A DNA stretch of 64,000 nt from Saccharothrix carnea (lineage in GTDB: Bacteria > Actinomycetota > Actinomycetes > Mycobacteriales > Pseudonocardiaceae): NCBI RefSeq assembly GCF_003014735.1, contig NZ_PYAX01000004.1, positions 620,001 to 684,000 of the forward strand, read 5' to 3'. A model generated the notes under the pieces. It worked only from the letters and a program-made list of their open reading frames with translations. It did no database searches and had not been told where the DNA came from. Numbering within the stretch: the stretch's first letter is position 1; each line of letters begins with the position of its first letter. Shown here one piece after another: positions 61-55,487 of the stretch. A program made the position numbers and the translations under genes.

Positions 61-1574
61 GACGCCTCCTCTTCGGTGACGGCGCTGCCCGCCATCACCA
101 TGTCCAACACGGCGGATTCGGTGAGCTCGTCGGCCCGCCGGTCCGCGATCACCTCGCCGTCGCGCAGCACCAGCACGCGGTCGGCGAGGCCGAGCACCTC
201 GGCGACCTCGCTGGACACCAGCACGACCGCGACGCCGGCCGCGGCCAGCTCGTGGATCACCCGGTACAGCTCGGCGCGGGCGCCGACGTCCACGCCGCGC
301 GTCGGCTCGTCCAGGAGCAGCACCTTGCAGCCCCGGACCAGCCAGCGCGCCACGACGGCCTTCTGCTGGTTGCCGCCGGAGAACTCGGCGACGAGCCGGC
401 GCGGGTCGGCGGGCCGCAGGTCGAGCCGTTCGAGGGTGGCCTTGGAGTCCTTCAGCTCGCGGGCGCGGTCCAGGAAGCCGACGCGGCTGTAGGCGGGGAG
501 GCTGGACAGCGTCACGTTGTGCGCGACCGGCAGGTCCAGCAGCAGGCCCTGTGCCTTGCGCTCCTCCGGTGCCAGCCCGATGCCCGCTTTGACGGCGGCG
601 ACGACGCTGCCCGGCCGGACGGGCTTGCCGTCCACCGCGATGTGCCCGGCGTCGGGTTTGCGGGCGCCGAACACGGTCTCCAGGATCTCGCTGCGGCCCG
701 CGCCGACCAGGCCCGCGATGCCCAGGATTTCCCCCGCGTGCACGTGGAAGCCGACGTCGTGGAACTCGCCTCTGCGGGTCAGCCCGGTGACCGTCAGGAC
801 TTCCCGCGACGTGTCCAGAGTGGACGTTTCGCGGTGTGGGAAGACCGTCTCCACCTTGCGGCCGGACATCAGGTCGACCAGGTCGGCGGTCGGGGTGTCG
901 GCCGGGAGGTTCGCGGCGACCGTGCGGCCGTCCTTGAGCACGGTGACGCGGCTGCCGATGCGGCGGATCTCTTCGAGGCGGTGGGAGATGTAGAGGACGG
1001 CGACACCGTCCCTGGTGAGCTCGCCGACGATGCGGAACAGGTTGTCGACCTCGTCGGCGGCCAGGGCGGCGGTCGGCTCGTCCATCACGATGAGCCGGGC
1101 GTCGTGCGCCAGGGCGCGGGCCATCGACACCAGCTGCTGACCGGCGGCGGACAACCGGCCCACCTCGCGGTCGGGGCTGATCTCTGGGTGGCCCAGGCGT
1201 GCCATCAACGTCCTGGTGAGGTCGCGGGCCGCGCGGCGGCGGGTGAAGCCGAACCGGGTCGGCTCGTGGCCCAGGAACACGTTCTCCGCCACCGAGACGT
1301 CCGGCACCAGGTCCAGTTCCTGGTACATGGTGGCGATGCCCAGCCGCAACGCGGCCACCGGCGACGGCAGCGCGGTCCGCTCACCACGCCACGCGATCTC
1401 GCCCTCGTCGGGCTGGTGCGCGCCGGCGAGCACCTTGATCAGGGTGGACTTGCCCGCGCCGTTCTGGCCGAGCAGGCAGTGCACCTCGCCCTCGGCGACC
1501 TCCAGGTCCACCTGGTCCAACGCGCGCACGCCCGGGAACGTCTTGCCGATGCCGGTCATCCGGAGCAGGGTCAT
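57..1574 (-). CDS. Sugar ABC transporter ATP-binding protein (RbsA/XylG type)
   Basis: A 505-residue protein with two fused ABC ATPase domains, the hallmark of CUT2 monosaccharide importers. Domain 1 has Walker A GQNGAGKS (residues 36-43), signature LSAAGQQ and Walker B LIVMDEPTA. Domain 2 has a degenerate P-loop (GLVGAGRSE), signature FSGGNQQK and LLLDEPTRGVD. The second site is normally catalytically weak in this family. It would energise uptake of a pentose, hexose or deoxysugar together with the permease that follows. Its ATG overlaps the stop of the upstream ROK gene (ATGA), so regulator and transporter are co-translated. The substrate cannot be read from the sequence; rhamnose is possible given rhaB at 51.8 kb, but they are 50 kb apart. 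Confidence 0.93.
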   Translation of the reverse strand: MTLLRMTGIGKTFPGVRALDQVDLEVAEGEVHCLLGQNGAGKSTLIKVLAGAHQPDEGEIAWRGERTALPSPVAALRLGIATMYQELDLVPDVSVAENVFLGHEPTRFGFTRRRAARDLTRTLMARLGHPEISPDREVGRLSAAGQQLVSMARALAHDARLIVMDEPTAALAADEVDNLFRIVGELTRDGVAVLYISHRLEEIRRIGSRVTVLKDGRTVAANLPADTPTADLVDLMSGRKVETVFPHRETSTLDTSREVLTVTGLTRRGEFHDVGFHVHAGEILGIAGLVGAGRSEILETVFGARKPDAGHIAVDGKPVRPGSVVAAVKAGIGLAPEERKAQGLLLDLPVAHNVTLSSLPAYSRVGFLDRARELKDSKATLERLDLRPADPRRLVAEFSGGNQQKAVVARWLVRGCKVLLLDEPTRGVDVGARAELYRVIHELAAAGVAVVLVSSEVAEVLGLADRVLVLRDGEVIADRRADELTESAVLDMVMAGSAVTEEEAS

Positions 1575-2761
1575 GCCGAGGCCCCTTCGTGTGAACCGCC
1601 CGCCTTGGGCGCTTTGACGGGCACGACGGTCGGGTCGTCGAGCACCCGGCGCAGCGCGGCCAGCGCCGCACCCCTGCCACCGGCGGCGAACCCGAGCGTG
1701 GACGCGCTGACCAGCGTCCGCCCGTGCCGTTGCGGCGCGACCAGCCAGTCCTGCAGGGCGGCGAAGTAGCCGCCGAGCACGATCTTGCGCGGGTTGAGCA
1801 GGGTCGCCAGGATGGAGAGGCCGGAGGCCAGGGCGGCGGCCGTGCGGTGCAGCGCGTCGAGGGTGCGGGCGTCACCGCGTTCGGCGCGGGTCCGCAGGAT
1901 CGTCATGCGTTCACCGGGCGCCAGTTCCGGGTTGTGCACCTGGTCGTGGCGCGGTGCGCAGGCGTGCAGGAACGCGTCCAGCCCCACCTGCGTCTCCCAG
2001 CACCCGCGCCGACCGCAGGCGCAGGACGTGCTGCCGAGCGGGTCGAGCACCATGTGGCCCACTTCGCCCGCCCGGTTGTCCGCACCGCGCACCAGCGCGC
2101 CGTTGGCGATCACGCCCGCCGCGACGCCGTGGTCGCCGGTCAGGTAGACGAGGTCGTCGACGGGGTCGCTGTCGTGCTCGGCGCGGACGGCGAGGTTGGC
2201 CTCGTTGTCGAGGTCGACTCGGCCGATGGGCAGGCCGGTCCGCGCCGCCAACCCGTCCACCACGGCCACGTCACGCCAGCGCAGCCGGTCGGCGGTGGCG
2301 GTGCCGGTCGCGCGGTCGGCCCGGCCGGGGATCGCCACCGTGACACCGGCCCAGTCGGCCTTCGGCACGTCTTCGAGGGCACGGCGGGTCAGGTCGGCGA
2401 GCCGGTCCAGGGCGTGCTCGGGCGCGCTGGTGTCGCAGCTGGTCTGGCGGCGCAGGTGCACTTCGCCGGTCAGGTCGGTGACCGTGGCGCCGAGGTGGCC
2501 GGGGTGCACGTCCAACCCGATGCCGCAGACCGCGCCGGGACGCAACTGGACCAGTTGCCCGGGCCTGCCCTGGGTCGTCGTGGTGCCCGCGCGTTCGGTC
2601 AGGCCACGTCGTTCGAGGTCTGCCAGGAGCGGGGCGACAGTGGCTTTCGACAGACCGGAGCCGGTGGCCAGTTGGGCACGCGACAACGGGCCGCGGGCGC
2701 GGAGCGTGCGCAGGAGGAGGGCGAGGTTGGCCTCGCGCCTGCCTTCGGTCTGCGCCTGCAT
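1571..2761 (-). CDS. ROK family transcriptional regulator
   Basis: A 396-residue protein with an N-terminal winged helix-turn-helix (residues about 10-65, with SRAQLATGSGLSKATV) followed by a ROK sugar-kinase-like domain. The ROK zinc cluster is visible as CACGRRGCWE. The regulator form (HTH present) indicates a sugar-responsive repressor or activator rather than a glucokinase. A GGAG site five bases before the ATG supports the start. It is the first gene of the importer operon, so it most likely controls that operon and itself. An 8+8 bp inverted repeat lies about 115 bp upstream (2877-2903). Confidence 0.9.
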   Translation of the reverse strand: MQAQTEGRREANLALLLRTLRARGPLSRAQLATGSGLSKATVAPLLADLERRGLTERAGTTTTQGRPGQLVQLRPGAVCGIGLDVHPGHLGATVTDLTGEVHLRRQTSCDTSAPEHALDRLADLTRRALEDVPKADWAGVTVAIPGRADRATGTATADRLRWRDVAVVDGLAARTGLPIGRVDLDNEANLAVRAEHDSDPVDDLVYLTGDHGVAAGVIANGALVRGADNRAGEVGHMVLDPLGSTSCACGRRGCWETQVGLDAFLHACAPRHDQVHNPELAPGERMTILRTRAERGDARTLDALHRTAAALASGLSILATLLNPRKIVLGGYFAALQDWLVAPQRHGRTLVSASTLGFAAGGRGAALAALRRVLDDPTVVPVKAPKAGGSHEGASA

Positions 2762-2876
2762 CGGTGCTCCGACTTCGTCGAGGGAGTCGATCGAACGAGG
2801 TGGTTCAGCTCACGTTCGGGGGTGAGTTGCGGCCGATCCTGACAGTCAGCCGCACGACCTGACAAGAACTTGCGCC

Positions 2877-2903
2877 GACTTTTGTCAGTTCGTTGCAAAA
2901 GTC
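2877..2903. promoter_or_regulatory. Inverted repeat, candidate ROK operator
   Basis: Perfect 8-bp arms GACTTTTG (2877-2884) and CAAAAGTC (2896-2903) separated by 11 bp, in an unusually AT-rich patch upstream of the ROK/importer operon. ROK regulators often bind long AT-rich inverted repeats near their own promoters. Binding is inferred from position only. Confidence 0.4.
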
Positions 2904-2972
2904 CGCTCCGTTTCGACGGAAGCTCGCCATTGCTTCTGCAAATCACCACCGCCACCGCACCCACGACGGGAC

Positions 2973-3082
2973 CCGAACGTAGAACTCAGGTGTGCTGAAC
3001 GTTGGACTCACGCGCCCTGAGCGTTGGACTCACGCGTTCTGAACGTAGGACACGCGGGACCTGAGGGTTCGACACGCGGAGG
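2973..3082. repeat. Five tandem 22-bp degenerate repeats
   Basis: Units start at 2973, 2995, 3017, 3039 and 3061, exactly 22 bp apart. The core resembles CTGAACGTTGGACTCACGCG. The second and third units differ by only a few bases; the outer units are more diverged. The array is in the non-coding space between the two ROK genes. No reading frame or known operator explains it. Confidence 0.8.
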
Positions 3083-3122
3083 GGCGGGAGCACGACGGGG
3101 CCGGAGGGTGACCGCGGAGGCC

Positions 3123-3188
3123 CGATTTGACATGGGTTCGGGTGCTTTGGCCTGCCTGGAGTGCCCGTAAGGGCCCCGTGTCAAATCG
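3123..3188. repeat. 66-bp element with 14-bp inverted ends
   Basis: Arms CGATTTGACATGGG (3123-3136) and CCCGTGTCAAATCG (3175-3188) are complementary except for one G-T pair, which an RNA stem would tolerate. The 38-bp interior contains smaller GC-rich complements. It lies 51 bp beyond the stop of the second ROK gene and just after the 22-bp array. It could be a terminator-like hairpin for that gene, although no T-tract follows, or a small palindromic mobile element. Confidence 0.6.
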
Positions 3189-3239
3189 AGCCGGAAGAAA
3201 CCACAGACACCCAGCCGGCCCGACAACCACCGGCCGGCG

Positions 3240-4445
3240 TCAGCCCGCCGGGGAGAACGCGCGGTCGGTCGCCGACCAGGCCGCGCCCGTCACGCCCGCC
3301 AGCTCACCCAACTCCGACAACACGATCGGCAGGTTGCCCGTCGCCAACGGCAGCGAGCGCCGGTAGACCGCACTGCGCACCTCGGCCAGCAGCGAGTGCC
3401 CCAACCGCGACACCCCACCGCCGATGACCACCATCCCCGGGTTGAGGAAGCTGACCAGCGACGCGACCACGTGCCCCAGCCGCCTGCCGCCCTCCCGCAC
3501 CAGGTTCGCCGCCGCGAAGTCGCCCGCCGCGGCGGCGGTGCCGACGTCCTCGGCGGTCAGCACACCCTTGTCGTGCAACGCGGTGGCCAGTGCGACGGAC
3601 CGGCCGCTGCGCGCCAACGTCGTGGCGTCACGGGCCAGCGCCGAACCACCGAAGTACGCCTCCAGGCAACCGACCTCGCCGCACGCGCACGCCGGGCCGA
3701 AGTCGTCCAGCCTGATGTGCCCGATGTCGCCGGCGGTGCCCGCCACACCTCGGTAGACCTTGCCACCGAGCACGATCCCGCAGCCGATGCCGGTGCCGAC
3801 CTTGACGAAGATCAGGTCCTCCAGCGACCGGGCGACCCCCGCGTGCCGCTCGCCCAACGCCATCGCGTTCACGTCGTTGTCCACCGTCACCGGGCAGCCC
3901 CACCGCCCCGCCAGCTCGTCGCGCACGGGGTAGCGGTCCCAGCCGGGCATGATCGGCGGCGCGACCGGCATTCCGTCGCGGAAGCTCACCGGACCCGGCA
4001 GGCCGATGCCCGCGCCGATCAACCGGCCCGACGCCTTGGCGTAGACGACGTCGGCCAGTTCGGCGACCCGGCTCAGCACCTGCGCCGGCCCGCTGCGGAC
4101 GTCGCAGTCCTCGCTGCGGCTCTCCAGCACCTCGCACCGGCCATCGGTGACGGCGACCGTCACCGAGGTCGCGCCCACGTCCACGCCGAGCACGCGCAGG
4201 TCGTCGGCCAGGTGGACGAGCGTCGACCGCCGGCCGCCCCGGCTGGCCGCCGGTCCACCGACCTGCACCAGACCGACGTCCACCAGCCTGGCCAGCTCGG
4301 CGGTCAGCTTGGCCCGCGGCAGCTCCAGCCGCTCCCCCAGCGCGACCCGGGACATCGCGCCCTCGTCGCGGAGCAGGCCGAGCAGCTCCGACTGCCTGCC
4401 GGAAACCACCCGCGGCTGCTGGCCGCTGCCCGTCGCACTGCTCAT
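3240..4445 (-). CDS. ROK family transcriptional regulator
   Basis: A 401-residue ROK protein with an N-terminal winged helix (residues about 15-70) and a kinase-like domain. Visible motifs are the phosphate-binding LGVDVGATSVTVAVTD, GIGLPGPV, the catalytic-loop VDNDVNAMALGE and the zinc cluster CACGEVGCLE. With the HTH it is expected to act as a sugar-responsive transcription factor. The region before the ATG has a TAAATT hexamer six bases upstream, so the transcript may be leaderless; the ribosome binding site is weak. It stands alone, with convergent or structured DNA downstream and LysE divergently upstream. Confidence 0.9.
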   Translation of the reverse strand: MSSATGSGQQPRVVSGRQSELLGLLRDEGAMSRVALGERLELPRAKLTAELARLVDVGLVQVGGPAASRGGRRSTLVHLADDLRVLGVDVGATSVTVAVTDGRCEVLESRSEDCDVRSGPAQVLSRVAELADVVYAKASGRLIGAGIGLPGPVSFRDGMPVAPPIMPGWDRYPVRDELAGRWGCPVTVDNDVNAMALGERHAGVARSLEDLIFVKVGTGIGCGIVLGGKVYRGVAGTAGDIGHIRLDDFGPACACGEVGCLEAYFGGSALARDATTLARSGRSVALATALHDKGVLTAEDVGTAAAAGDFAAANLVREGGRRLGHVVASLVSFLNPGMVVIGGGVSRLGHSLLAEVRSAVYRRSLPLATGNLPIVLSELGELAGVTGAAWSATDRAFSPAG

Positions 4446-4575: not shown

Positions 4576-5205
4576 ATGCCGATCGACCACCACCTGCTCG
4601 CCCTGTTCACGTTGACCACCATCATCGCGATGATCACCCCCGGACCCGACATGCTGTTCGTCCTCGGCTGCGGTATGCGCGGCGGACCGCGGGCCGGGCT
4701 GCTGGCCACCGCCGGAGTGGCGACGAGCGAGGCCGTCCACGTCATCGTCGCGGCGGCGGGCCTGGCCGCGTTGTTCGCCGCGGTGCCGGTGGCGTTCACG
4801 GTCGTCCGCACGATCGGCGCGGCCTACCTGGTCTACCTGGGCGTGCAGGCCATCCGCCACCGCGGGCGCACCGTGGTCGGCGAGGCGGTGACCGGCGGCA
4901 TGTCCGGCCGCCGCGCCTTCCTCACCGGGATGGCGACCAACCTGCTCAACCCGAAGATGGTCACCTTCACGATCGCGTTCCTGCCGCAGTTCATCAACCC
5001 GGACCTCGGCCGGGTGTGGCTCCAGTTCGTCATCCTCGGCGCGATCCTGATCGTGCTGGAGTTCGTGGTGGACGGCGCGGTCGGCGTGCTGGCCGGCCGG
5101 ATCGGCGGCTGGTTGCGCCACCGGCACGCCGCCCGCCGCCGGATCGACGTCGCCACCGGCGGCGTGTTCATCGGGCTCGGCGTCCGACTGGCCGTGGAGC
5201 GCTGA
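4576..5205 (+). CDS. LysE/RhtB family amino-acid exporter
   Basis: A 209-residue membrane protein with the family signature MITPGPDMLFVLGCG close to the N-terminus and about six hydrophobic segments. The conserved NLLNPKMVTFTIAFLPQF stretch lies mid-protein. The family exports basic amino acids, homoserine/threonine or related small molecules across the inner membrane. The ATG at 4576 starts the conserved MPIDHHLLALF sequence; longer upstream frames are antisense to the ROK gene and lack homology. It is transcribed divergently from the ROK gene, but no regulatory link is visible. Confidence 0.9.
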   Translation: MPIDHHLLALFTLTTIIAMITPGPDMLFVLGCGMRGGPRAGLLATAGVATSEAVHVIVAAAGLAALFAAVPVAFTVVRTIGAAYLVYLGVQAIRHRGRTVVGEAVTGGMSGRRAFLTGMATNLLNPKMVTFTIAFLPQFINPDLGRVWLQFVILGAILIVLEFVVDGAVGVLAGRIGGWLRHRHAARRRIDVATGGVFIGLGVRLAVER

Positions 5206-8511: not shown

Positions 8512-10065
8512 ATGGAGTTCGACGTCGTAGTTGTCGGTTGCGGCCCGGTCGGCGCGGTGACCGCGAACCTGCTCGGCCTGCACGGTGTCCGCACGCTGGT
8601 CGTGGAACGGTCCACCGGTCCGCACGGGCAGCCGCGGGCGTTCTCGTGCGACGACGAGGCGCTGCGGATCTACCAGCAGGCCGGTCTCGCGGTGGCCCGT
8701 GACCTGCACCGGCCCTCGACCGCCGAGTACGTGGACGCGAAAGGCAAGCCGTTCGCCACGATCGCGCTGGACGAAGTCGACTTCGGGCTCGGCGCGGGCC
8801 CGCTGCACTTCTTCGACCAGCCGCGGTTGGAGGCGGTGCTGCGGGCGGGCCTGGACCGGTTCCCGCACGTGGTGCTGCGGACCGGCGTCGAACTGGTCGA
8901 ACTGGGTGACGACGTGGTGGTGCGCGACCTCAGGACAGGTGCGACGGAGGCTGTGCGCGCCCGTTACGTGCTGGGGTGCGACGGCGCGCGCAGCACGACG
9001 CGGGCGGCGGCCGGGATCGGGCTGTCCGGATCGTCCTACGCCGAGCCGTGGCTGGCCGTGTCCGGCACGCTGGAGCCCGCGGCGGTCCGGGTGCCGACCA
9101 CGCGGTTCGTGTGCGACTGGCGTCGTCCGGCGTTCGTGTCACCCGGTGCGTTCGACGGCTACCGGCTGGAGTTCATGCTCCGGCCGGGCGAGACGGCCGA
9201 GGAGATGACCAGGCCGGACACCATCGCGCGGCTCGTCTCGCCGTACGTCGACCCGGCGCGGTTCACCGTGACGCGGGCGACCGTCTACACCTTCCACCAC
9301 CTGGTCGCGTCGCGGTGGCGGTCCGGGCGGGTGTTCCTGCTCGGTGACGCGGCGCACCAGATGCCGCCGTTCCTGGGCCAGGGACTGTGCAGCGGGTTGC
9401 GTGACGCGGCGAACCTGACTTGGAAGCTGGGTCTCGTGCTGGGCGGCCGGGCCGACGAGGCGCTGCTGGACAGCTACGAGACCGAACGCCGCCCGCACGT
9501 CGAGGAGATGGCGCGGACCAGCGTGCGGCTCGGCCGGGTGTTCCTGGTGCGCGACCGGTTCGCCGCGGCCGTGCGGGACGCCGTGCTGCGCGCCGCGCAG
9601 ACCGTCCCGCGGGTGCGGCGCTTCGTGCGGCACTTCGAGTTCAAGCCGCTGCCCGCCCTGCGCCGGGGCGTGCTGGCGGGCGGGAGGCGGCGCGGCGCGG
9701 TCGGCACGATGTTCCCGCAGCCCAGGGTGGGCGTGCCGGGTTCGGCGACGCCCCGGCCGCTGGACTCGGTGCTGGGCGTGGAGTTCACCGTGATCGGGCC
9801 GGGGGTGGACCGGGCGACCGCGACGGCCTGGCAGGGACCGCCCGCCCGGTTCGTGCGGGTGCTGCGGACCGCGGACGACGACAACACCGAGGTGACGTCC
9901 GTGGTCGACGTGGACGGCACGTTGACGGCCTGGTTCGCCCGGCACGGCACGGACGTGGCGGTGCTGCGGCCGGACCGGTTCGTCTACTCGCTGCGGCCGG
10001 TGGTCGAGCCGGGTGACGGGCTGCGCGCACCGGTCGGTCACGATCCCGGCGTGCCCGGTCAGTAG
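8512..10065 (+). CDS. FAD-dependent aromatic hydroxylase (MhpA/PheA class A monooxygenase)
   Basis: A 517-residue flavoprotein. The N-terminal Rossmann motif is VVVGCGPVGAVTANLL, followed later by the second FAD motif GRVFLLGDAAHQMPPFLGQG. These are the features of NAD(P)H-dependent class A hydroxylases such as 3-(3-hydroxyphenyl)propionate hydroxylase and tailoring enzymes of polyketide pathways. The substrate cannot be assigned. It follows the SARP regulator by ten bases. Its 3' end overlaps the convergent NTPase gene by seven bases. Confidence 0.9.
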   Translation: MEFDVVVVGCGPVGAVTANLLGLHGVRTLVVERSTGPHGQPRAFSCDDEALRIYQQAGLAVARDLHRPSTAEYVDAKGKPFATIALDEVDFGLGAGPLHFFDQPRLEAVLRAGLDRFPHVVLRTGVELVELGDDVVVRDLRTGATEAVRARYVLGCDGARSTTRAAAGIGLSGSSYAEPWLAVSGTLEPAAVRVPTTRFVCDWRRPAFVSPGAFDGYRLEFMLRPGETAEEMTRPDTIARLVSPYVDPARFTVTRATVYTFHHLVASRWRSGRVFLLGDAAHQMPPFLGQGLCSGLRDAANLTWKLGLVLGGRADEALLDSYETERRPHVEEMARTSVRLGRVFLVRDRFAAAVRDAVLRAAQTVPRVRRFVRHFEFKPLPALRRGVLAGGRRRGAVGTMFPQPRVGVPGSATPRPLDSVLGVEFTVIGPGVDRATATAWQGPPARFVRVLRTADDDNTEVTSVVDVDGTLTAWFARHGTDVAVLRPDRFVYSLRPVVEPGDGLRAPVGHDPGVPGQ

Positions 10066-13049
10066 ATCCGCGTCGACGTGTAGATCAAGGTGAAGCCGGT
10101 GTCGACCAGGGCGCCGGCCGGGTCGAAGCAGGCGATCCACACCGAGGCGTCGTTCGCGCGGCTGTAGTCGTTGAGCAGCATCACGCTGCAGTGGTTGCCG
10201 TGACCGGCGGCGGTGACGTGCGCGGTGCTGCGGATGTAGCCGTTGGTGAGGTGGACCCGGTACTTGCCGGTGGACAGCTGCTCCAGCGTCATCGGGGCGT
10301 TGCCCGACGCCCACCGCGTGGTGGTCACCGGGGCGCCCGTCGTCGGCGAGTCCTCCGCCACGAGGTAGGCGCCGACCGGTTTGCGCGGGTCGTCCAGCAG
10401 GTTGTGGCGCACCGTGAACGCGGCGGTGAACGCGGTGTCCGCCGGCGAGCCGCCCGGTGCCGTGCACGCGAAGTCGGCGAGCTGCCCGCGCCTGCCGACG
10501 ACGGCGCAGTGGCGCGGCACCGGCCCGACCGCCGTCACCTCGACCACGCCGCCGGCCGACCCCGGGAAGTCCGCGGTGTAGCGGCCGACGCCTGTCCTGG
10601 TGACCACGCCCGCGTTCGCGCCGTGCCGCCAGTCGGGGGTGAAGGTGGCCGCGGTGGGCTGGTCGTCGTGCACGAAACCACGCGCACCGGAGGCGGACCC
10701 GGCCACGTACCGCAGGAAGAACGGCACGTCGTCCGGGTTGCCCGCCCGGTCGAAGCACAGCACGTCGACCACCTCGTCGGCACCGTCCTGGAACCAGGTC
10801 GACGGCTGGCAGGACACGCCGGGCCGGTAGCCGACGCCGTCGTACCAGGCGGCGTAGTCGAAGGTGGTCACCTTCACGCTGCCGCCTGGTGCGCCGACGC
10901 CCGGCAGCCGGACGCGCTGCCTGCCGACGCCGATGTGCGTGGCGGTCGGGTAGCCGATGGCCGGGTTGGTCATCTCCCACGGGCCGTAGGTCCAGTTCGC
11001 CTCGTCGTTGTTCGGCACGGTCGGCCCGGACAGCGCGCGGGTCGTGCCGATCGGGGTCTCCACGTACTGGACGCGAACGTGGCCCCACGTGGCGGCGGGC
11101 ACCGGGGGGTCGGGCGAAATCGTGGTGGTCGGTGGTGTGCCCGTGCGGTCGGTGTCCGTCGTGCCCGGTTGCCGCCTCTCCCCCGGCACGTCACGCGGCG
11201 TGGTGCCGTTGGTCGGGGCGGGCGGGCCGGTGAGCGCCGGCCCGTCCGGCGCGGTGGTGGTCGTCGGGTCCGGCACGGTGCCGGCCGCACCCGGCGGCTG
11301 TCCCGTCACGGAGGTGGTCGGCGGCACGGCGGTGGCCTCCTCGCGGCTGCCGGACGCCGACATGGTGGTCAGCACGAGCCCCGCCACCGCCGCCAGTGAC
11401 ACGACCCCGCGCACGACGCCCGGGTTCTCCTGCACCAACCGTCCCACCGGCGTGCTCGTCAGCGCGGTGGCGCACGCGTCGCGCACGGCCTTCGCCGAGG
11501 CCGCCGCGGTGCCACCCAGTTCGGCGACCCGCGCCAAGATAGCGTCCACAGTGGACAGTGGCTGCCGCGCGGACAGGTGCCGGACCTCGGCGTCCAGCTC
11601 GCGCAGCCGGACCGCGAGCCGCTCGTCCCCGTCGTCACCGGCCAGCCCGACCGCGCCCGCCAGCACCTCGGCGGCCTGCCGGGTGTTGCCGTCGTTGAGC
11701 CGGCACACGGCCAGCGCGTAGCGGAAGGACAGCTCGTCGCGCACGGACCCGGCGCCGATCGCGGCGCGCAGCCCGAGCCCCAGCACGATCGCCAACGCGC
11801 CCCAGTGCCGTGACCACACCAGCCCCGCGGACGCCGCACGGGCCAGCGCCAACGCGGTCTCGGGCAGCTCCGCGGCCAACGTCCGCTTCAGCGCCCGCTC
11901 CACGACGTCGAGCTCGTCGGCGATGGCGTCGGGTTCCGCCACCGACACCCACTCCGTGACGCGGTCCACCAGCGACGGCAGGTCGTCGTCCGCGAACGGC
12001 GGCGCGAACCCGGCGACCACGTCACCGACGCGGAAGCGGTCGCCTTCCCGGTGCGCCAAGCGCTTGCGGGCCAGCTTGTCCGCGCCGTGCTCCTCGGGCA
12101 CGCCGCAGACGGCGGACAGCAGCTCCGCTCCCCACCACACGTCGCCCAACGCGACCAGCGGGCGCAACGCCTCGCGGGCCCGTCCGGTGAGCGAGTCGAG
12201 CACGATCGGGACGACCTGCGCGAGCGCCTCGGCACCGGGCAGCCCCTCGGGGACGACACCCAGGCCACGGGCCGAGTCACGCAGCACCGCGCGTTCCAGG
12301 ACGTCCAAGGGGTTGCCGTCGCACGCGTCCCAGTCGCTCTCGACCGCCGCGACGTCCGGCTCACCGACCTCGTCGCGCACCATGGCGAGCGTGTCGGCCA
12401 ACGGCAACCCGCCCAACACCCGCTGCCTGCCCACCACCCACAGGTCGTCGCGCCGCGACGTCAGCACGAACACGCTGCGGGGCAGGGCCGACACGACCAG
12501 CCGGGCGTCGTCGGGCGGCAGGTCCACGCCGTCCAGCACGACGACCGCGCGGACGTCGGCGAGCAGCCTCCGGGCCAGGCCCTCGGGCACCACCGTGCCC
12601 GCGTCCAGCTCGTAGCACTCGTGCACGAGGTCCCCAAGGACGTCCGCGACCGACCGCGCCACCCGGGCCGGCCACAGCAGGCCGACGTCGTCGCCCACCG
12701 AGAGCGCACCGGTGTTCGCCGCGTGCTGGAGCAGCAACGTCTTGCCGGCGCCCTTCGGCCCGGTCACCACGACGTGCCTGCCCGCGGCCACGCTGTCGCG
12801 CACGAACGCCAGGTCGTCCGCGCGGCCCCGCACCGGCGAGCGGAGGGTGCGCGCGAGGGTCGCGGGCAACGGCCGCCGCACCAGGTCGTCCGGCCGCAGC
12901 ACCGGCCGGGGCGCGTCCAGCCGCCGATCGATCGACTGGTGGACGTGCAGGTCCCGCCCGACCTGGATGACCTGGGCAGCTCCGGCTGCCACCGCCACCT
13001 GGCCGAGCGCCTCCCGCCCGCCACCGGGCCGTCGCCGAGTGCCCATCAC
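10059..13049 (-). CDS. Membrane-anchored STAND-like NTPase with extracellular beta repeats
   Basis: 996 residues in a distinctive order. Residues about 20-40 form a beta motif (AAQVIQVGRDLHVHQS). Residues 90-350 hold a P-loop NTPase with Walker A GPKGAGKT (97-104), Walker B AVVVLDGVD (168-176) and a CYE triplet at 145-147. A helical region (350-540) follows, then one membrane helix (about 545-564) and a Pro/Thr-rich linker (570-655). The last 340 residues form an extracellular region with repeated modules containing G-x-G-R-Y/Q and V-x-C-F-D-x-A-G motifs. The NTPase core aligns by eye with the protein at 53670-55487. The gene lies 63 bp downstream of the sensor gene on the same strand, so they probably form an operon. 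Function is unknown; a surface-sensing or conflict role is inference. Confidence 0.85.
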   Translation of the reverse strand: MMGTRRRPGGGREALGQVAVAAGAAQVIQVGRDLHVHQSIDRRLDAPRPVLRPDDLVRRPLPATLARTLRSPVRGRADDLAFVRDSVAAGRHVVVTGPKGAGKTLLLQHAANTGALSVGDDVGLLWPARVARSVADVLGDLVHECYELDAGTVVPEGLARRLLADVRAVVVLDGVDLPPDDARLVVSALPRSVFVLTSRRDDLWVVGRQRVLGGLPLADTLAMVRDEVGEPDVAAVESDWDACDGNPLDVLERAVLRDSARGLGVVPEGLPGAEALAQVVPIVLDSLTGRAREALRPLVALGDVWWGAELLSAVCGVPEEHGADKLARKRLAHREGDRFRVGDVVAGFAPPFADDDLPSLVDRVTEWVSVAEPDAIADELDVVERALKRTLAAELPETALALARAASAGLVWSRHWGALAIVLGLGLRAAIGAGSVRDELSFRYALAVCRLNDGNTRQAAEVLAGAVGLAGDDGDERLAVRLRELDAEVRHLSARQPLSTVDAILARVAELGGTAAASAKAVRDACATALTSTPVGRLVQENPGVVRGVVSLAAVAGLVLTTMSASGSREEATAVPPTTSVTGQPPGAAGTVPDPTTTTAPDGPALTGPPAPTNGTTPRDVPGERRQPGTTDTDRTGTPPTTTISPDPPVPAATWGHVRVQYVETPIGTTRALSGPTVPNNDEANWTYGPWEMTNPAIGYPTATHIGVGRQRVRLPGVGAPGGSVKVTTFDYAAWYDGVGYRPGVSCQPSTWFQDGADEVVDVLCFDRAGNPDDVPFFLRYVAGSASGARGFVHDDQPTAATFTPDWRHGANAGVVTRTGVGRYTADFPGSAGGVVEVTAVGPVPRHCAVVGRRGQLADFACTAPGGSPADTAFTAAFTVRHNLLDDPRKPVGAYLVAEDSPTTGAPVTTTRWASGNAPMTLEQLSTGKYRVHLTNGYIRSTAHVTAAGHGNHCSVMLLNDYSRANDASVWIACFDPAGALVDTGFTLIYTSTRIY

Positions 13050-13112
13050 CGGTCATCGTCCTACGGTCCACCGGACCGCGAGCCGCAAGGATGCGGTCCG
13101 CCGCGCATTCGC

Positions 13113-15833
13113 TCAGCGGGGCGTGGTGGGGCACCACGGTGCGCGGCGGAGGTCGACGTCGTCGCGGTTCGGGTAGTCGCCGCAGGAGGCCAGCACGGTG
13201 GGCGGCTCGCCGTCGGTCACCCCGAGCACCGCCAGGAACTTGTCGATCGGGACCTGCCCGTCCCCGAAGTCGATCACGCCGCTCTCGCCGGACAGCGCCC
13301 GCTCCCCGCCGATGTCGCTCATCTCCTTCCAGACGTGACCGGGCGACACCGGGATGTCACCGAGCTGGATCATGGCGTGCACGAACAGGTACAGCGCGTC
13401 GTAGGTGAGCGCCGCGTGGCCGTCCAGCGACGGGTTCGCGCCACCCTCGCACTCCTCCGGCACGAGGTGGCGCAGCGTCTGGTGCATCTCCGTCGCCGCC
13501 GCGCAGCCCTGGGCGCCGATCGCGAACGACAGGTACTCGAACGGGATCTCCGGGTGCTGACCGCGCAACGTGTCGTCGGCGGCGTAGCGGGCGATGTCGT
13601 CCCCGGCCAGCAGCACGGGCGGGTCGCTCTTGCACCCGGCGCTCAGACCGTCCATGAGCTTGCCGAAGTCCGCGGGCCGTCCCGCGAAGAACACCACCTC
13701 GTCGTCACCGACGTCGCACAGCGACTGGCCGAGCCGCCTGGCGTCGGAGCCCTGCCCCGCCGACACCGGCTGGTACGGCTGCTCGCGCACCCGCAACCCC
13801 AGTTCGGCGAACCGCTCCGCCACGTCGAGCCGCAGGTTGGCCGCGTAGGAGTCCTGCTCGTCGCTGGAGTGCACGATCACCACGCCGCTCTTGCCCGGGT
13901 GGTTCGCGCGCACGTGCCGGGCCGCGACCTCCGCCTGCCGGTCGTTGGTCGGCGAGACCTGGAAGTACATCCGGGACGCCGTGGGCATCTCGTCGTCCGA
14001 CAGCGTCGCGGCGACCACCGGCAGGCCCACCTTCCCCAGCGCGGTGATCGTGTCCCTGGTCGGCGTGCTGCTCAACGCCATGCCGAGCACGCCGACGATG
14101 CTCTTGTCCCGCTCCGGCATCGACCCGAGGACCTCGGCGACCACGCCTCCGTGCTGCATCGCCGAGCCCGCGTTGCTCAGCAGGACCCGGATCAGGGGGT
14201 CGTCGGAGTCGGTGCGGTCGAGCAGCCGCGCCTGCCGGGCCGCGACGCCGACCAGCCTCGCGGTGTTGCTGGCCAGCGCGTCCCGGGCCGTGCCCATCGC
14301 CGACACGTACACGACGGTCGCGTAGGGGCGGCCGGGGTCGCGCGCGTGCGCCTCCAGCACCTTCCGGTTCTGGTCCACGATCAACTGCTGGACCCGGTTG
14401 AAGCGCTGGAGGTCCTCGCCGTCCGCCTCGCCGAACAGCGGTACCGGGCCCGTCGTCACGCCGACGCAGTCGTCGCCGATCCGGCGCAGCGTGTGCGCGT
14501 CGGGGTTGTCCCGGTCCAGGCCGCAGTGGTCGAACCGCCACCGGTCGCTCGCGGCGACCACCTGCGTCACGTGCCGGTAGCCGACCGTGGCCACCGACCC
14601 GAGCAGGAGCAGCACCACGACCGCGAGCACCGACGTGCGCGACCAGATCGGGGCCTGCCGCACCGACAGCGTGGCCGTGGGCGGCACCTCACCGCGCACC
14701 ACGGTCACGTCCGGCACCCGCAGCGGCAGGAACCACGCGGTGGGACGGCGGGCCCGGCTGTCCGTGGCCAGCTTGCGCGCCCACGTCTCGTAGGCGTGGC
14801 TCGCCTGGCCCACCGGCGCCGGTTCGCGCTCGGCGGCGGTCTCCGCGTCCGGTGGCACCTTGGCGCTGCCGGAGATGATCACCAGCGGGTCGAACGCGCC
14901 GGTGTCGTTGCGGACGTCGTTGATGATCTTCAGCAGGGCGTAGCCGCCGTTGTCGCGGCGGATGCCGTCCAGCAGCACGACCGGGTACACCGTGCGGCGG
15001 GCCGACCTGATCCGCCACCACGACCGCCGGTACGCGCGGCGCACGTCCTCCAGGAATGCGTTGACCAGCAGCTTCGCCAGCTGGCCGGTGTCCTCGCGCG
15101 GCTCGGCGCTCTGACCGGGCACCAGTGCGGAGGTCAACCGCTCGGCGAAGCCGATGAACGTGCCCGGGTCGTGCGGCGCGAGGTAGGGCTGGCGGAGCAG
15201 CCACCGGTACTCGCTGCCCGGCACGACCCCGCGCAGCTTCGCCCGGAACAGGAAGGACGGCGCGAGCCGCACCACCAGCCGCACCCACCACGGCGCGGTC
15301 CCGGCGGCGTCGTCCAGCACGTCCTTCAGGTCGTCACCGCTGCGCCGGCCCAGGTCCCGCTCCCGCAATCGCGTCAGCAGGGTCGCGGCCGACTCCGGGT
15401 CGGTGCCGTCCAACCGCTGGTTCATCAGCCAGTAGACCAGCTCGAAGCGCCGGAACTCGTGCCGCCCGTAGCGGTCGTTCGCGCCGTGGGCCAGTTCGCG
15501 GGCGACGCGCACCAGCACCGACCCGACTGCTTCCACCGTGCCGGGCTCGGGCAGGGCCGCGTCCGGTTCCGGGAACCGGTGGTAGGCGTGCGGCACGCGG
15601 CCGGGGTGCGCGCCGCGCAGGTGCGCCTGCAGGGCTTGCAGCAGACCGGCCGCCTGCGTGCCGCGGACCAGGCAGACCAGCGGGATGCCCCGGTCGCCAC
15701 CGGCCCGCGGGCCCGACCGGCGGCCCGGCAGTTCGCCGAACCGCGGCCGTTCGGTCAGCTCCTGCAGGAGCTTCACCAGCTCGTCCACGACCTCGGCCGA
15801 CGAAAAGCGTTCCCCTGCACCGTGTTCGGCCAC
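13113..15833 (-). CDS. Membrane sensor: P-loop-like cytoplasmic domain, TM helix, periplasmic-binding-protein domain
   Basis: 906 residues. Residues 1-390 are cytoplasmic. They resemble a P-loop ATPase without a P-loop: the strand IPLVCLVRGTQ at 50-60 lacks GxxGxGK, while a Walker-B-like TVYPVVLLDG lies at 281-290. One hydrophobic helix spans about 400-417. Residues 450-900 match the type I substrate-binding fold of branched-chain amino acid receptors (Peripla_BP_6), with paired strands such as VVIVHSSDEQDSYAANLRL and PVLLAGDDIARYAADD. No transporter genes are nearby, so the binding domain probably acts as a receptor. GAGGAG five bases before the GTG supports the start. A truncated paralogue begins at 63251. 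Confidence 0.85.
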   Translation of the reverse strand: MAEHGAGERFSSAEVVDELVKLLQELTERPRFGELPGRRSGPRAGGDRGIPLVCLVRGTQAAGLLQALQAHLRGAHPGRVPHAYHRFPEPDAALPEPGTVEAVGSVLVRVARELAHGANDRYGRHEFRRFELVYWLMNQRLDGTDPESAATLLTRLRERDLGRRSGDDLKDVLDDAAGTAPWWVRLVVRLAPSFLFRAKLRGVVPGSEYRWLLRQPYLAPHDPGTFIGFAERLTSALVPGQSAEPREDTGQLAKLLVNAFLEDVRRAYRRSWWRIRSARRTVYPVVLLDGIRRDNGGYALLKIINDVRNDTGAFDPLVIISGSAKVPPDAETAAEREPAPVGQASHAYETWARKLATDSRARRPTAWFLPLRVPDVTVVRGEVPPTATLSVRQAPIWSRTSVLAVVVLLLLGSVATVGYRHVTQVVAASDRWRFDHCGLDRDNPDAHTLRRIGDDCVGVTTGPVPLFGEADGEDLQRFNRVQQLIVDQNRKVLEAHARDPGRPYATVVYVSAMGTARDALASNTARLVGVAARQARLLDRTDSDDPLIRVLLSNAGSAMQHGGVVAEVLGSMPERDKSIVGVLGMALSSTPTRDTITALGKVGLPVVAATLSDDEMPTASRMYFQVSPTNDRQAEVAARHVRANHPGKSGVVIVHSSDEQDSYAANLRLDVAERFAELGLRVREQPYQPVSAGQGSDARRLGQSLCDVGDDEVVFFAGRPADFGKLMDGLSAGCKSDPPVLLAGDDIARYAADDTLRGQHPEIPFEYLSFAIGAQGCAAATEMHQTLRHLVPEECEGGANPSLDGHAALTYDALYLFVHAMIQLGDIPVSPGHVWKEMSDIGGERALSGESGVIDFGDGQVPIDKFLAVLGVTDGEPPTVLASCGDYPNRDDVDLRRAPWCPTTPR

Positions 15834-17650: not shown

Positions 17651-18460
17651 TTGGCTCGGCACGTCCGTCACAAGAACAAACGTGGGCAGACCACGTTCCA
17701 GGTACCCCCGCCGCCCCCCGGCTACAAGGGCGCTCACCGCGCCGAGTCGGAGCGGGTCCTCCCGAGACGCATCGCCGGTGTGGCGGTGGCCGTGGGCATC
17801 GTCTCCGGCGCCGGCGCCGCGGCCCACGCGATGACCGGGACGTTCAGCCCCGTCGCCGGTGGCGCGGACCTCGGCGGCGTGCCGGACGAGGCGGCCCAGT
17901 CCGGCCAGGTCCAGACCGTGCACGCGGTCGACCTCGGCTCGGAGACCGCCCGGATCATCCGCCAGGAGCAACTGGCCGCGCTGCACACGTTCAACCAGGC
18001 CAGCGGCATCACGCAGGACGGCTACGCGGCGCGCAAGGCGGCCGAGGAGCAGGCGGCGCGGGAAGCGCACGAGGCCGCGGAGGCGCGCAAGCCGCCGAAG
18101 CAGCGCCAGATCGAGGGCTGGATCCGCGAGGCGATCGGCGTCCTGGCGGCCAACGGCACGGCGATCGACGAGAGCAGCGTCGACGAGATCTACACGATCA
18201 TCATCAAGGAATCCAACGGCAACCCCAACGCCGTGAACACCTGGGACTCCAACGCCGCCCGCGGCACACCGTCCAAGGGCCTGATGCAGTGCATCGACCC
18301 GACGTTCCAGAGCTACAAGATCCCCGGCTACGACGACATCTACGCGCCGGTCGACAACATCATCGCGGGCGTCCGCTACACCTACGCGCGCTACGGCGGC
18401 TTCGCCAGGCACCCCGGCCTGGTCGGCATCAACAACGGCACCGGCTACGTCGGCTACTGA
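17651..18460 (+). CDS. Lytic transglycosylase-like protein with membrane anchor
   Basis: 269 residues. A basic cytoplasmic start (MARHVRHKNKRG) and one hydrophobic segment (residues about 43-62) are followed by a charged helical region rich in Ala/Glu. A C-terminal SLT-type domain contains the catalytic glutamate in IIIKESNGNPNAVN and the structural motif SKGLMQCIDPTF, and ends NNGTGYVGY. The protein would cleave peptidoglycan glycan strands outside the membrane. The start is a TTG preceded by AGGAGG. The 5' leader contains a CRP-like site and a predicted RNA fold, so expression may be regulated both transcriptionally and by RNA structure. Confidence 0.88.
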   Translation: MARHVRHKNKRGQTTFQVPPPPPGYKGAHRAESERVLPRRIAGVAVAVGIVSGAGAAAHAMTGTFSPVAGGADLGGVPDEAAQSGQVQTVHAVDLGSETARIIRQEQLAALHTFNQASGITQDGYAARKAAEEQAAREAHEAAEARKPPKQRQIEGWIREAIGVLAANGTAIDESSVDEIYTIIIKESNGNPNAVNTWDSNAARGTPSKGLMQCIDPTFQSYKIPGYDDIYAPVDNIIAGVRYTYARYGGFARHPGLVGINNGTGYVGY

Positions 18461-53271: not shown

Positions 53272-53658
53272 TCAGCCGCCGAACCGCCGCGTGAACTCGG
53301 CCGCCAGCCCGGCACCGGCCGCGCCGACGAGCTTGGCGACGATCGGGTTGAGGATCAGCTCCGACACCGAGGCCGCGAGGCGGGGCATCTTCCGGCCGAA
53401 CCAGTTGCGGATGCTCTCCATCGTGGCGAGGTCGGGCTCGTCGTCGGTGATCGCCTCTTCCAGCTCGTCGACCTTCGCGCGGGCCGCGTCGTCGTCCTCG
53501 CCGAGTTGCGCGCGGAGCCGGGCGAACAGCGCGGCCAGGTCCTCCGCCTCGCGGGCGTCGAGCCGCACGGGTGCGTTGGTGACCGCGTTGTTGTCACCGA
53601 CGACGACGTTGCCGCTGATGTCGCCCCCGACGCGGAGGCGGAACCGGTTGTCGGACAT
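53272..53658 (-). CDS. Small protein sharing the N-terminal beta motif of the adjacent NTPase
   Basis: 128 residues. Residues 7-26 read RLRVGGDISGNVVVGDNNAV, aligning without gaps to SVGGSLSGVVVIGDHNVV at the start of the upstream NTPase. A helical region follows with acidic coiled-coil character (REAEDLAALFARLRAQLG) and an amphipathic or weakly hydrophobic C-terminus (NPIVAKLVGAAGAGLAAEF). GGGAG lies five bases before ATG 53658. The gene starts 11 bp after the NTPase stop. It may be an adaptor or effector that pairs with the NTPase through the shared motif; this is inference. Confidence 0.85.
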   Translation of the reverse strand: MSDNRFRLRVGGDISGNVVVGDNNAVTNAPVRLDAREAEDLAALFARLRAQLGEDDDAARAKVDELEEAITDDEPDLATMESIRNWFGRKMPRLAASVSELILNPIVAKLVGAAGAGLAAEFTRRFGG

Positions 53659-53669
53659 GGGTTCTCCCG

Positions 53670-55487
53670 TCACCCCGGAGTGGGGATGGTGGTGGTGGTG
53701 GTGGTGGTCGTGGTCGGCTTGACAACCGTGGTCGTCGGCGGCACGGGTGACGTCGCTGCTTCGACCACCCCGCTCAGCACCATGGGACGTTCGGCGGGGA
53801 GGGTGACCTGTGCCGTGTAGTCGCCGGGTTCGGTGGCGTCGAAGTAGATCGTCACCGTGCAGCTCTCGCCCGGTGACAGCACGTCGGGGCAGTCGGGCTT
53901 GAGGGCGAACACCGGCGCGTCGGGACCGCCGAGCGCCAACCGGCCGGTCGGGACGCCGTCGCCGTGGCAGGGCTGCGCGACGATCGGGATCGAGCGGGTG
54001 TTCCGCACGAGGTCGAGCCCCAGCGACGCGGGCAGGACGGGGTCGCACGGCGGATCGGTCGTCGGGTCGGTGATCGGGTCCTCCGGGTCGGCCGGTCCCG
54101 AGGTGGGGGTTCCGGCCGGGATGGTGGTGACGGTGTCCGGTGCGCTCGCCGTGGTCGACGCCGTCGGCTGCCCGGCGGTGTCACCCGGCTCGCTCAGGGC
54201 CAACCAGCCGAAGCCGACCAGCGGTGCGAGGACCAGCAGCGGGAGGAGGACCTTCCACCACAGACCCGAAGCCGACCGTTCCGCGAGCAGCCGGTCCCGC
54301 ACCTGGAGTTCCCGTTCGAAGTAGGCCAGTTCGCGGGACTCGCCCAGCACACGCGCGGCCTCCGCGCCGAGCACCAGCACCTCGCCCCAGGCACCGAGTC
54401 GCAGTGACCGCAGCAGCGCCGGGGCGGCGACCCGGGCCAGCTCCAGCGCTTCCGCGGTAGGCCCGGCGGCGGTGAGCACGGCGACGATGACCGGTGCGGC
54501 CTCGACCACCTCGGATCGTGCCGGGCCGCTCCAGAGCCAGTCCGCCAGCGTGGTCGCCGCCGAGGACGCCGAAGCGACCTCCGCGGCCGGGGTGGCGAGG
54601 TGGACCCCACCGCCGTCCACCGTGACGAGCCCGACCCGCTCCAGGTCGGCCAGCACCGGTGCGGCCTCCGCCGAGGCGATCCCGGCCAGCAGCGCGAGGA
54701 GCGCGACCGAGCACCCGACGCCGCCGAGCAGCGCGAGCACCCTGATGACCCGGCGGTGCCGCTCGTCGGTCGTGGTGGCGGCGAGCCGGAGCAGCGCGGG
54801 CGGGCTGCCGCGGGCGGCCCGGACCTGCCGCAGCTCGGCCGCGGTCGGTGGACGGCCGAGGACGCGGTGCACGAGGGCGAGGCTCGCTTCAGGGGACAGG
54901 TCGCCGAGCGCCACGGCCCGCCCCGCGGACCACAGCGTGCGCTCCCGCACCGCGGACAGCACGGTGCAGCCGGACGCCGCGTCGAGCACCCGTTCGATGT
55001 CCTCCGGCCGGTCGGACAGGTGGTCCAGCACCAGCACCGCGCGGATCGGTTCCAGGAACCGGCGCAGGCGCGCGGGAGTCGGCCGGTAGTCCTCGGCTGC
55101 CTCGTAGCAGGCCTCGAACAGGTCCTGGAGGAGGTCGTCGACGTGCTTGCCGCTCTCCGACAGGCAGATCACGTGATCACGTGCCGCCCGCTGCCGGCTG
55201 ATGTGCCGCAGCAGCAACGACTTGCCGTAGCCGGCGGGCCCGTGCAGCTGGACGTGCCGGCGGGCGTCGAGCTCGGCGTGCACGGCACGCAGTTCCGCGT
55301 CCCGGCCGACCGGCGCCTCCCGTTGTCCCCACAGCAGGGAACGCGGCGGTGTCGTGCGGCGCGGCGCGGGTGGTGTCGTCGGGCTGACCGTGGTGCCGGC
55401 GTGGTCGCACACCACGTTGTGATCGCCGATGACGACGACTCCGCTGAGACTCCCCCCGACGCTGACCGTGGTCGATCTGTCGTCCAC
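53670..55487 (-). CDS. Membrane-anchored STAND-like NTPase with extracellular Ig-like domain
   Basis: About 605 residues. The N-terminal beta motif (residues 8-26) precedes a P-loop NTPase with Walker A GPAGYGKS (83-90), CYE at 127-129 and Walker B AVLVLDHL (150-157). A helical region (240-400) leads to one membrane helix (about 410-431). Outside the membrane are a Pro/Thr linker, a beta-sandwich-like segment (LSPGESCTVTIYFDATEPGDY) and a threonine-run tail encoded by a GGT-type microsatellite. The NTPase core and topology match the protein at 10059-13049. The GTG start is chosen because MDDRSTTVSVGG aligns with the small partner; GTG 55559 is an alternative. Confidence 0.82.
   Translation of the reverse strand: MDDRSTTVSVGGSLSGVVVIGDHNVVCDHAGTTVSPTTPPAPRRTTPPRSLLWGQREAPVGRDAELRAVHAELDARRHVQLHGPAGYGKSLLLRHISRQRAARDHVICLSESGKHVDDLLQDLFEACYEAAEDYRPTPARLRRFLEPIRAVLVLDHLSDRPEDIERVLDAASGCTVLSAVRERTLWSAGRAVALGDLSPEASLALVHRVLGRPPTAAELRQVRAARGSPPALLRLAATTTDERHRRVIRVLALLGGVGCSVALLALLAGIASAEAAPVLADLERVGLVTVDGGGVHLATPAAEVASASSAATTLADWLWSGPARSEVVEAAPVIVAVLTAAGPTAEALELARVAAPALLRSLRLGAWGEVLVLGAEAARVLGESRELAYFERELQVRDRLLAERSASGLWWKVLLPLLVLAPLVGFGWLALSEPGDTAGQPTASTTASAPDTVTTIPAGTPTSGPADPEDPITDPTTDPPCDPVLPASLGLDLVRNTRSIPIVAQPCHGDGVPTGRLALGGPDAPVFALKPDCPDVLSPGESCTVTIYFDATEPGDYTAQVTLPAERPMVLSGVVEAATSPVPPTTTVVKPTTTTTTTTTIPTPG

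Follow-up and report, generated by a model that had tools for sequence, protein, structure and literature searches.

In a 64,000-nucleotide stretch of the genome of Saccharothrix carnea, a soil bacterium (contig NZ_PYAX01000004.1, positions 620,001 to 684,000; referred to here as the window), the gene at 13113-15833 on the minus strand starts with GTG and encodes a 906-aa protein that joins a pseudo-STAND core, a single transmembrane (TM) helix, and a periplasmic-binding ectodomain. We put at roughly 0.6 the probability that this protein is a ligand-sensing single-pass receptor whose core would serve as a nucleotide-independent scaffold; the core is probably a scaffold rather than an enzyme. 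The layout proposed in the sequence-only reading of this DNA, in which a single TM helix links an inner, eroded P-loop domain to an outer periplasmic-binding domain, is borne out by profile comparisons, hydropathy, and a model of the ectodomain, and the sensory rather than transport role that it favored is the likeliest one. Nine further genomes of the genus keep relatives that are 79-90% identical over almost their entire length, so the open reading frame is a real gene; five of the close-relative loci are named as Saccharothrix. Neither PADLOC nor NCBIfam assigned the receptor to a known defense family.

The first line of evidence concerns the inner domain (residues 12-398, 14640-15800). We compared a profile of 26 inner domains that lack Walker A (A1, the window member included; hereafter “dead” cores) with a profile of 13 hand-picked STAND NTPases that carry the same ectodomain (A3), either fused to it (L043, L065, and L069) or encoded beside it (L042, L055, L057, L060, L070-L072, and L075-L077); further STANDs of these loci, from L061-L064, L066-L068, L073, and L074, were outside A3. 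The two profiles align in hhalign with a probability of 99.2 and an E value of 9e-20, over a span that runs from before Walker A to past Walker B and ends at column 313 of A1 and column 303 of 663 of A3. Homology was also recovered by hmmsearch both ways, with A3 detecting dead cores down to 4e-19 and A1 detecting intact STANDs down to 1e-11. When scanned with Pfam, the A3 proteins match AAA_16, AAA_22, and related models to an extent that ranges from clear (L070 and L042) to none (L055). GK[ST] is present in 12 of the 13 A3 members, the exception being L077, which reads GRT. Across the dead cores, G-x4-GK[ST] is missing from 26 of 26 aligned members; the corresponding slot in the window receptor (residues 48-70, 15624-15692) reads RGIPLVCLVRGTQAAGLLQALQA, without GxxxxGK[ST], and a further dead relative, L087, does have a GK[ST] string but only away from the P-loop slot. 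A Walker B-like strand, TVYPVVLLDG, lies at residues 281-290 (14964-14993). Both motif calls of the sequence-only reading, the absence of GxxGxGK and the presence of this Walker B-like strand, hold. An AlphaFold2 (AF2) model of the inner domain (pLDDT 73.7, pTM 0.79) shows five strands spaced as in a STAND/AAA+ core, and strand 5 is connected to the TM helix by a linker of only ~25 residues. The ~300 further residues with which the intact relatives continue, their C-terminal half, are absent; in STANDs generally, the half that follows the core is the lid and winged-helix region. The protein has neither the Walker A motif nor the C-terminal region of an active STAND/AAA+ protein. From these comparisons, we take the inner domain to be a degenerate STAND/AAA+ core that lost Walker A and would have lost ATP binding at the old P-loop.

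The second line of evidence concerns the outer half of the protein. Hydropathy finds one strongly hydrophobic stretch only, at about residues 393-422, and the single TM helix is placed at about residues 399-423 (14565-14639). One Cys precedes this stretch and eight follow it, a distribution that fits, as expected, a putative oxidized outer domain. The ectodomain (residues 426-906, 13116-14558) is modeled by AF2 with a pLDDT of 91 and a pTM of 0.91, and Foldseek matches it to LivK (3td9; E 2e-15, TM-score of 0.80 on the target), which places it among the Venus-flytrap, or type I periplasmic-binding, proteins; class C GPCR Venus flytraps are also among the matches, and sequence identity is 10-16% across the 50 structural matches listed. 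The assignment to a Peripla_BP_6-type domain made in the sequence-only reading is confirmed by this fold, although the Pfam score of the receptor (27.8 bits at E 2.6e-6 in one scan, 30.3 bits in another) is under the gathering cutoff of 31.7; a relative, L165, passes with 44.4 bits. In a profile alignment to LivJ of S. pneumoniae (4gnr), two loops align with receptor residues 588 and 606-615, which we take to be the LivJ-type loops that hold the ligand carboxylate. Within this pocket region (residues 588-612, 13998-14072), Ser or Thr occupies positions 588, 610, and 612 in 26 of 26 members, and D745 and R749 of the ectodomain are invariant. These pocket residues offer a lead towards an amino-acid-like ligand. 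The ectodomain is of the branched-chain-amino-acid-binding type, and its ligand may be an amino acid or another carboxylate.

Given that the ectodomain has the fold of LivK-type binding proteins, could the receptor instead be the membrane-anchored substrate-binding component of an ABC importer? The window does contain an ABC ATPase (57-1574), two ROK regulators (1571-2761 and 3240-4445), and a LysE-type translocator (4576-5205), which lie about 8-13 kb from the receptor (about 9-13 kb for the ABC ATPase and the ROK regulators). In L003 and L059, homologues of these ABC and ROK genes directly follow the receptor on the same strand, the very next gene being a ROK homologous to window 3240-4445, and ABC-like P-loop genes, recognized by motif, are near L047, L051, and L053. 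The statement in the sequence-only reading that no transporter genes are near is roughly correct: it holds for the direct neighbors, neither of which is a transporter gene, but less so for the 8-13 kb around the receptor and for the L003 and L059 loci. The co-encoded cognate permease and ATPase that mark an ABC importer are not found at the receptor, the ectodomain is fused to a 390-aa cytoplasmic core, and the same ectodomain recurs on EAD1, kinase, and TIR-containing proteins; nor is there a transporter gene at a fixed place across the listed loci, with systematic neighbor annotation confined to the window. We consider an importer role very improbable.

The third line of evidence is descent. 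In a tree of 55 chosen inner domains (34 dead and 21 called intact), the dead form occupies one side of a branch with support of 100/99. The rows comprise 22 of the 26 A1 members (L012, L014, L016, and L018 are not included), 12 further dead cores, the 13 A3 members, and 8 further STANDs with GK[ST]; L077, with its GRT, is counted as intact, and those two-gene STANDs in which the Walker A Lys is replaced (L063, L101, L176, and L181) are excluded. In the ectodomain tree (56 rows, 33 of them dead), a branch likewise separates the dead form from the rest, with duplicate, partial, stop-bearing, or N-bearing sequences left out (L001-L006, L080, L081, L084, L085, L088, L089, and L098, including five close orthologues). 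The dead rows are drawn from six actinobacterial families (f1, f5, f15, f31, f32, and f33). These trees suggest one old loss of the P-loop for the dead clade, with probable further losses elsewhere. Among two-gene STANDs, the Walker A Lys is replaced in L063 (GPTGSGRS), L077 (GYGGSGRT), L101 (GPRGSGGS), L176 (GPAGSGAS), and L181 (GHHGMGRS), and these are probably such further losses.

Is the inner domain nothing more than a decaying remnant without function? Walker A is gone, and some copies are indeed broken, such as the receptor remnant at L036/L079 and the L120 receptor with its in-frame stop. In the clade of the window gene, by contrast, the inner domain is under purifying selection, which is stronger there than on the ectodomain: Nei-Gojobori dN/dS values against the window gene are 0.17-0.47 for the inner domain and 0.30-1.0 for the ectodomain, the inner value being the lower in 11 of 11 comparisons, and it is also lower in four of six other pairs. 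Together with residues that are invariant across the 26 members and with conservation across families, this makes decay hardly credible.

How widespread is the dead form? Among 296 genomes sampled across the class, A1 matches occur in 18, the window's included (P-loop-bearing STANDs account for at least two of the matches), and the ectodomain occurs in 56; because at most six (A1), five (ectodomain), and, in the receptor searches, fifteen candidates per genome were scored, absences are provisional. The genome of the window itself encodes three dead receptors, namely the window gene, L041, and, elsewhere, L040, as well as two with an intact P-loop: L043, a fused NTPase, TM, and ectodomain protein of 1140 aa that reads GPKGCGKT, and L042, an NTPase gene followed by a TM-ectodomain gene. 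The L041 paralogue, whose inner domain is 31% identical to that of the window receptor, begins inside the window at 63263-64000 (plus strand), where it is cut by the window end; the full gene is L041 6264-8978. A 951-aa relative on plasmid p1 of S. fungicidicus, in which no P-loop was seen, has no annotation other than “ABC transporter substrate-binding protein.” In S. fungicidicus, at L100 6957-7562, a gene for an HD-domain protein follows the receptor on the same strand after 27 bp.

Several points weigh against a nucleotide-independent receptor of this descent. The AF2 model of the inner domain is only moderately confident, and its best Foldseek match has an E value of 0.026 and a probability of 0.20; most of the 50 listed matches are P-loop NTPases, each of them nonsignificant. 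Because Foldseek alone gave no significant match, the claim of a STAND core rests on sequence profiles, and the P-loop relationship advanced in the sequence-only reading stands on the profile comparison and not on the fold search. Pfam offers no name for this domain: among the 26 members, five families were each hit by a single stray member (best E 0.012), and the window domain had no match at E up to 5. A sequence search of the PDB found no relatives up to an E value of 10. Of the 26 dead cores, 21 retain the Walker B Asp, given which nucleotide, or something else, may still be bound in a changed mode. The predicted outside position of the ectodomain derives from hydropathy and Cys distribution only. 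The P-loop columns themselves were included in the inner-domain tree, the ectodomain tree supports the dead clade at 90/92 only, and both trees are unrooted. In two pairs from another subfamily, L040-L046 and L040-L056, dN/dS is higher for the inner domain than for the ectodomain. Lastly, a conserved operon partner for the receptor was not recognized in the loci surveyed.

The search for a partner begins with the adjacent gene. Downstream of the receptor on the same strand, after a gap of 63 bp (13050-13112) that agrees with the sequence-only reading, the gene at 10059-13049 (minus strand) encodes a 996-aa protein with an intact P-loop (GPKGAGKT), weak NACHT and AAA_16 matches, and, by eye, a TM segment and an extracellular part. 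The proposal was that the dead receptor pairs with this membrane NTPase and nucleates or inhibits it. Apart from the short same-strand gap, what speaks for this pairing is that the gene or a 70% homologue adjoins or is near the receptor in three of 10 close orthologues: the window, L005, and L102 (in L102 at 1020-3964, split over two frames and 1.4 kb from the receptor). It was not found near the other close orthologues (L001-L004, L059, L103, and L104), in two of which (L003 and L059) a different gene directly follows the receptor, and it is present at 0 of 3 loci of the clade at 60% identity (L048-L050). At the 27 other dead-receptor loci (L040, L041, L044-L047, L051-L053, L056, and L105-L121), a homologue is near one (L106, a 30% relative on the other strand) and was not found in 26, in a survey that for a part of the loci covered the genes within three places of the receptor and in which the gene caller missed the receptor itself in L116 and L117. 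Different kinds of P-loop genes are near several receptors, e.g., L002, L049, L050, and L053. On these locus counts, pairing with the neighbor as a general rule is rejected, and the 10059-13049 NTPase is not supported as a conserved partner. That the two proteins nonetheless work as a pair in the window is, in our judgment, very improbable.

Could an intact STAND encoded elsewhere in the genome take this part? In such a scheme, the receptor would form mixed rings in trans with ectodomain-linked STAND NTPases and set their threshold. The cores are homologous and the ectodomain is in common, both kinds occur in the genome of the window, and rings of active and inactive STANDs have been proposed for another system, in the accessible text of PMC8195603. 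We surveyed 24 genomes of the genus (G000-G023) and found a full-length dead receptor in 17 and an A3-type STAND in 15; both were found in 8, the dead receptor only in 9, the A3-type only in 7, and neither in 0. The A3-type search scored at most 31 candidates per genome, which makes absences provisional, and its counts are of A3 matches regardless of P-loop state and of linkage to an ectodomain (the match in G004, L063, reads GPTGSGRS, with Lys replaced). The distribution leans to complementarity, with a one-sided Fisher p of 0.019 for avoidance, uncorrected for kinship. An obligatory partnership with A3-type STANDs is contradicted by the 9 of 17 dead-receptor genomes that gave none, unless other STAND families serve. 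We regard mixed rings as an unlikely arrangement, if somewhat less so than pairing with the neighbor.

Taking the evidence together, we favor a receptor that signals through a scaffold. Flytrap receptors in general couple an outside ligand to closure of the flytrap and to transmission across the membrane. We posit that the Venus-flytrap ectodomain would face outside and bind a ligand, that binding would alter the closure or the dimer state of the ectodomain, and that this change would pass via the TM helix to the cytoplasmic pseudo-STAND core. The core, with no ATP binding or hydrolysis at the old P-loop, would then serve as a scaffold that works without nucleotide, recruiting or releasing a partner in the cytoplasm via a conserved surface (YRW..RQPY, FAERL, AFLEDLR.AY, and INDVRN..DPL); we propose the scaffold step because the core is conserved without its catalytic motif. 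Might the core have kept some other old activity, such as nucleic-acid binding, and so couple an outside ligand to nucleic-acid sensing inside? The accessible text of PMC8195603 proposes nucleic-acid sensing generally for inactive STANDs; the sequences examined here hold no specific pointer to it, and we think it about as doubtful as mixed rings.

How does the scaffold receptor relate to known systems? The iSTAND and iSTAND2 proteins are described in the accessible text of PMC7159879 and PMC8195603 as inactive STAND proteins of vWA-MoxR ternary systems. The resemblance lies in a STAND core that is kept without its nucleotide-binding motifs; iSTAND and iSTAND2 are, moreover, proposed there to be sensors, in hosts that are multicellular in habit. 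Unlike the receptor, they form part of MoxR-vWA gene triads; Pfam scans of a part of the window genes gave no match to MoxR or vWA, and those of the 26 members brought up no profile for iSTAND. The combination of inactive STAND, TM helix, and periplasmic-binding ectodomain is not described in the iSTAND passages of these two sources. A second comparison is with the EACC1 system, which according to the same sources is prevalent in actinobacteria and in some cases has TM helices with a periplasmic-binding-protein domain after them, outside the cell. It resembles the receptor in its actinobacterial hosts and in that outer part; its constant part, there, combines EACC1 with a protein of the caspase or cyclase kind, and the Pfam-scanned window genes gave no match to these. 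A third is the inactive STAND fused to GT4/HEPN beside another STAND (PMC8195603), in which one STAND has eroded motifs, as here, and the other is proposed to be active. That pair differs in its effectors and, in the passage on it, no TM segment or ectodomain is mentioned; the receptor here is without a conserved active partner gene.

The LivK/LivJ proteins and class C GPCR flytraps share their fold with the receptor ectodomain, which, unlike them, has no link to an importer or to a 7-TM domain. A description of the receptor architecture was not found in open-access literature text, a search that covered running text, so that one could appear in a figure of PMC7159879 or in a supplement; nor did the open-access literature yield a description of a wider set of flytrap-sensing signaling proteins. 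We view the receptor as a variant of the inactive-STAND theme within such a wider set.

What, then, is the sensor used for elsewhere? Of 40 loci taken from a class-wide search with the ectodomain, 11 are two-gene pairs of a STAND and an ectodomain protein; GK[ST] is found in eight of these (L152, L177-L180, and L182-L184) and not in L159 (which reads GMGKG), L176, or L181. At L183 (4582-10009), one STAND gene is followed by two tandem TM-ectodomain genes. Pfam scans of nine fused proteins returned TIR_2 with Pkinase (L160 and L162), DUF4062 (L163), Pkinase (L188), EAD1 (L187 at 35.6 bits, with a cutoff of 24.2, and L189 at 24.1), and TIR_2 with DUF7779 and a subthreshold NB-ARC (L191), and no inner family above cutoff in L185 and L186. 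The seven others of the nine match the ectodomain profile with E values of 3e-26 to 2e-88. In the remaining 22 loci, L185 and L186 among them, the inner domain is A1-like (E up to 1e-4) in 12 and unassigned in 10. In L062, L068, L073, and L074, the STAND genes before the TM-ectodomain gene start with a VDIAGS.. stretch that is cyclase-like by eye, a label that is unproved, Pfam having reported no nucleotide cyclase in L062 or L068.

TIR, EAD1, and STAND are signaling modules of conflict systems, in the accessible text of PMC7159879 and PMC8195603. We speculate, as a tentative proposal with less than even odds, that this family of ectodomains supplies immune-like signaling in Actinobacteria with an outside sensor of general, plug-in use, with the window protein in an ancient branch whose STAND turned into a nucleotide-free adaptor. 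Such a family would be a bacterial counterpart of the surface pattern-recognition receptors that feed NLR-type switches and would respond to amino-acid-like molecules from damaged cells or rivals.

In the accessible text of PMC7159879 and PMC8195603, inactive STANDs figure as members of gene clusters, with a role that is proposed but untested. Here, one shares a polypeptide with a receptor domain whose ligand-binding fold is well understood, it can be compared with relatives that have this ectodomain and whose P-loop is intact, and the dead form is conserved over several actinobacterial families. The receptor is a testable handle on two questions: how are STAND-type systems activated from outside, and what can a STAND do without ATP?

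The wider neighborhood offers further observations. An SLT-domain transglycosylase gene (window 17651-18460, plus strand) is a close neighbor in the flanks of 10 of 10 close orthologues, which may be plain synteny. In L040, L046, L056, and L107-L110, a gene that by eye resembles an M20 peptidase directly precedes the dead receptor on the same strand, and in five of these seven a universal-stress-protein-like gene comes before it; in L108, one gene lies between, and in L110 it was not seen. In one genome, a gene that is MoxR-like by eye (L116 1478-2470) sits within a few kb of the dead receptor. Within the window, at 53272-55283 (minus strand), a small protein with a GNVVVGDNN motif is followed by a STAND-like P-loop gene with weak AAA_22, AAA_16, and nSTAND_NTPase5 matches.

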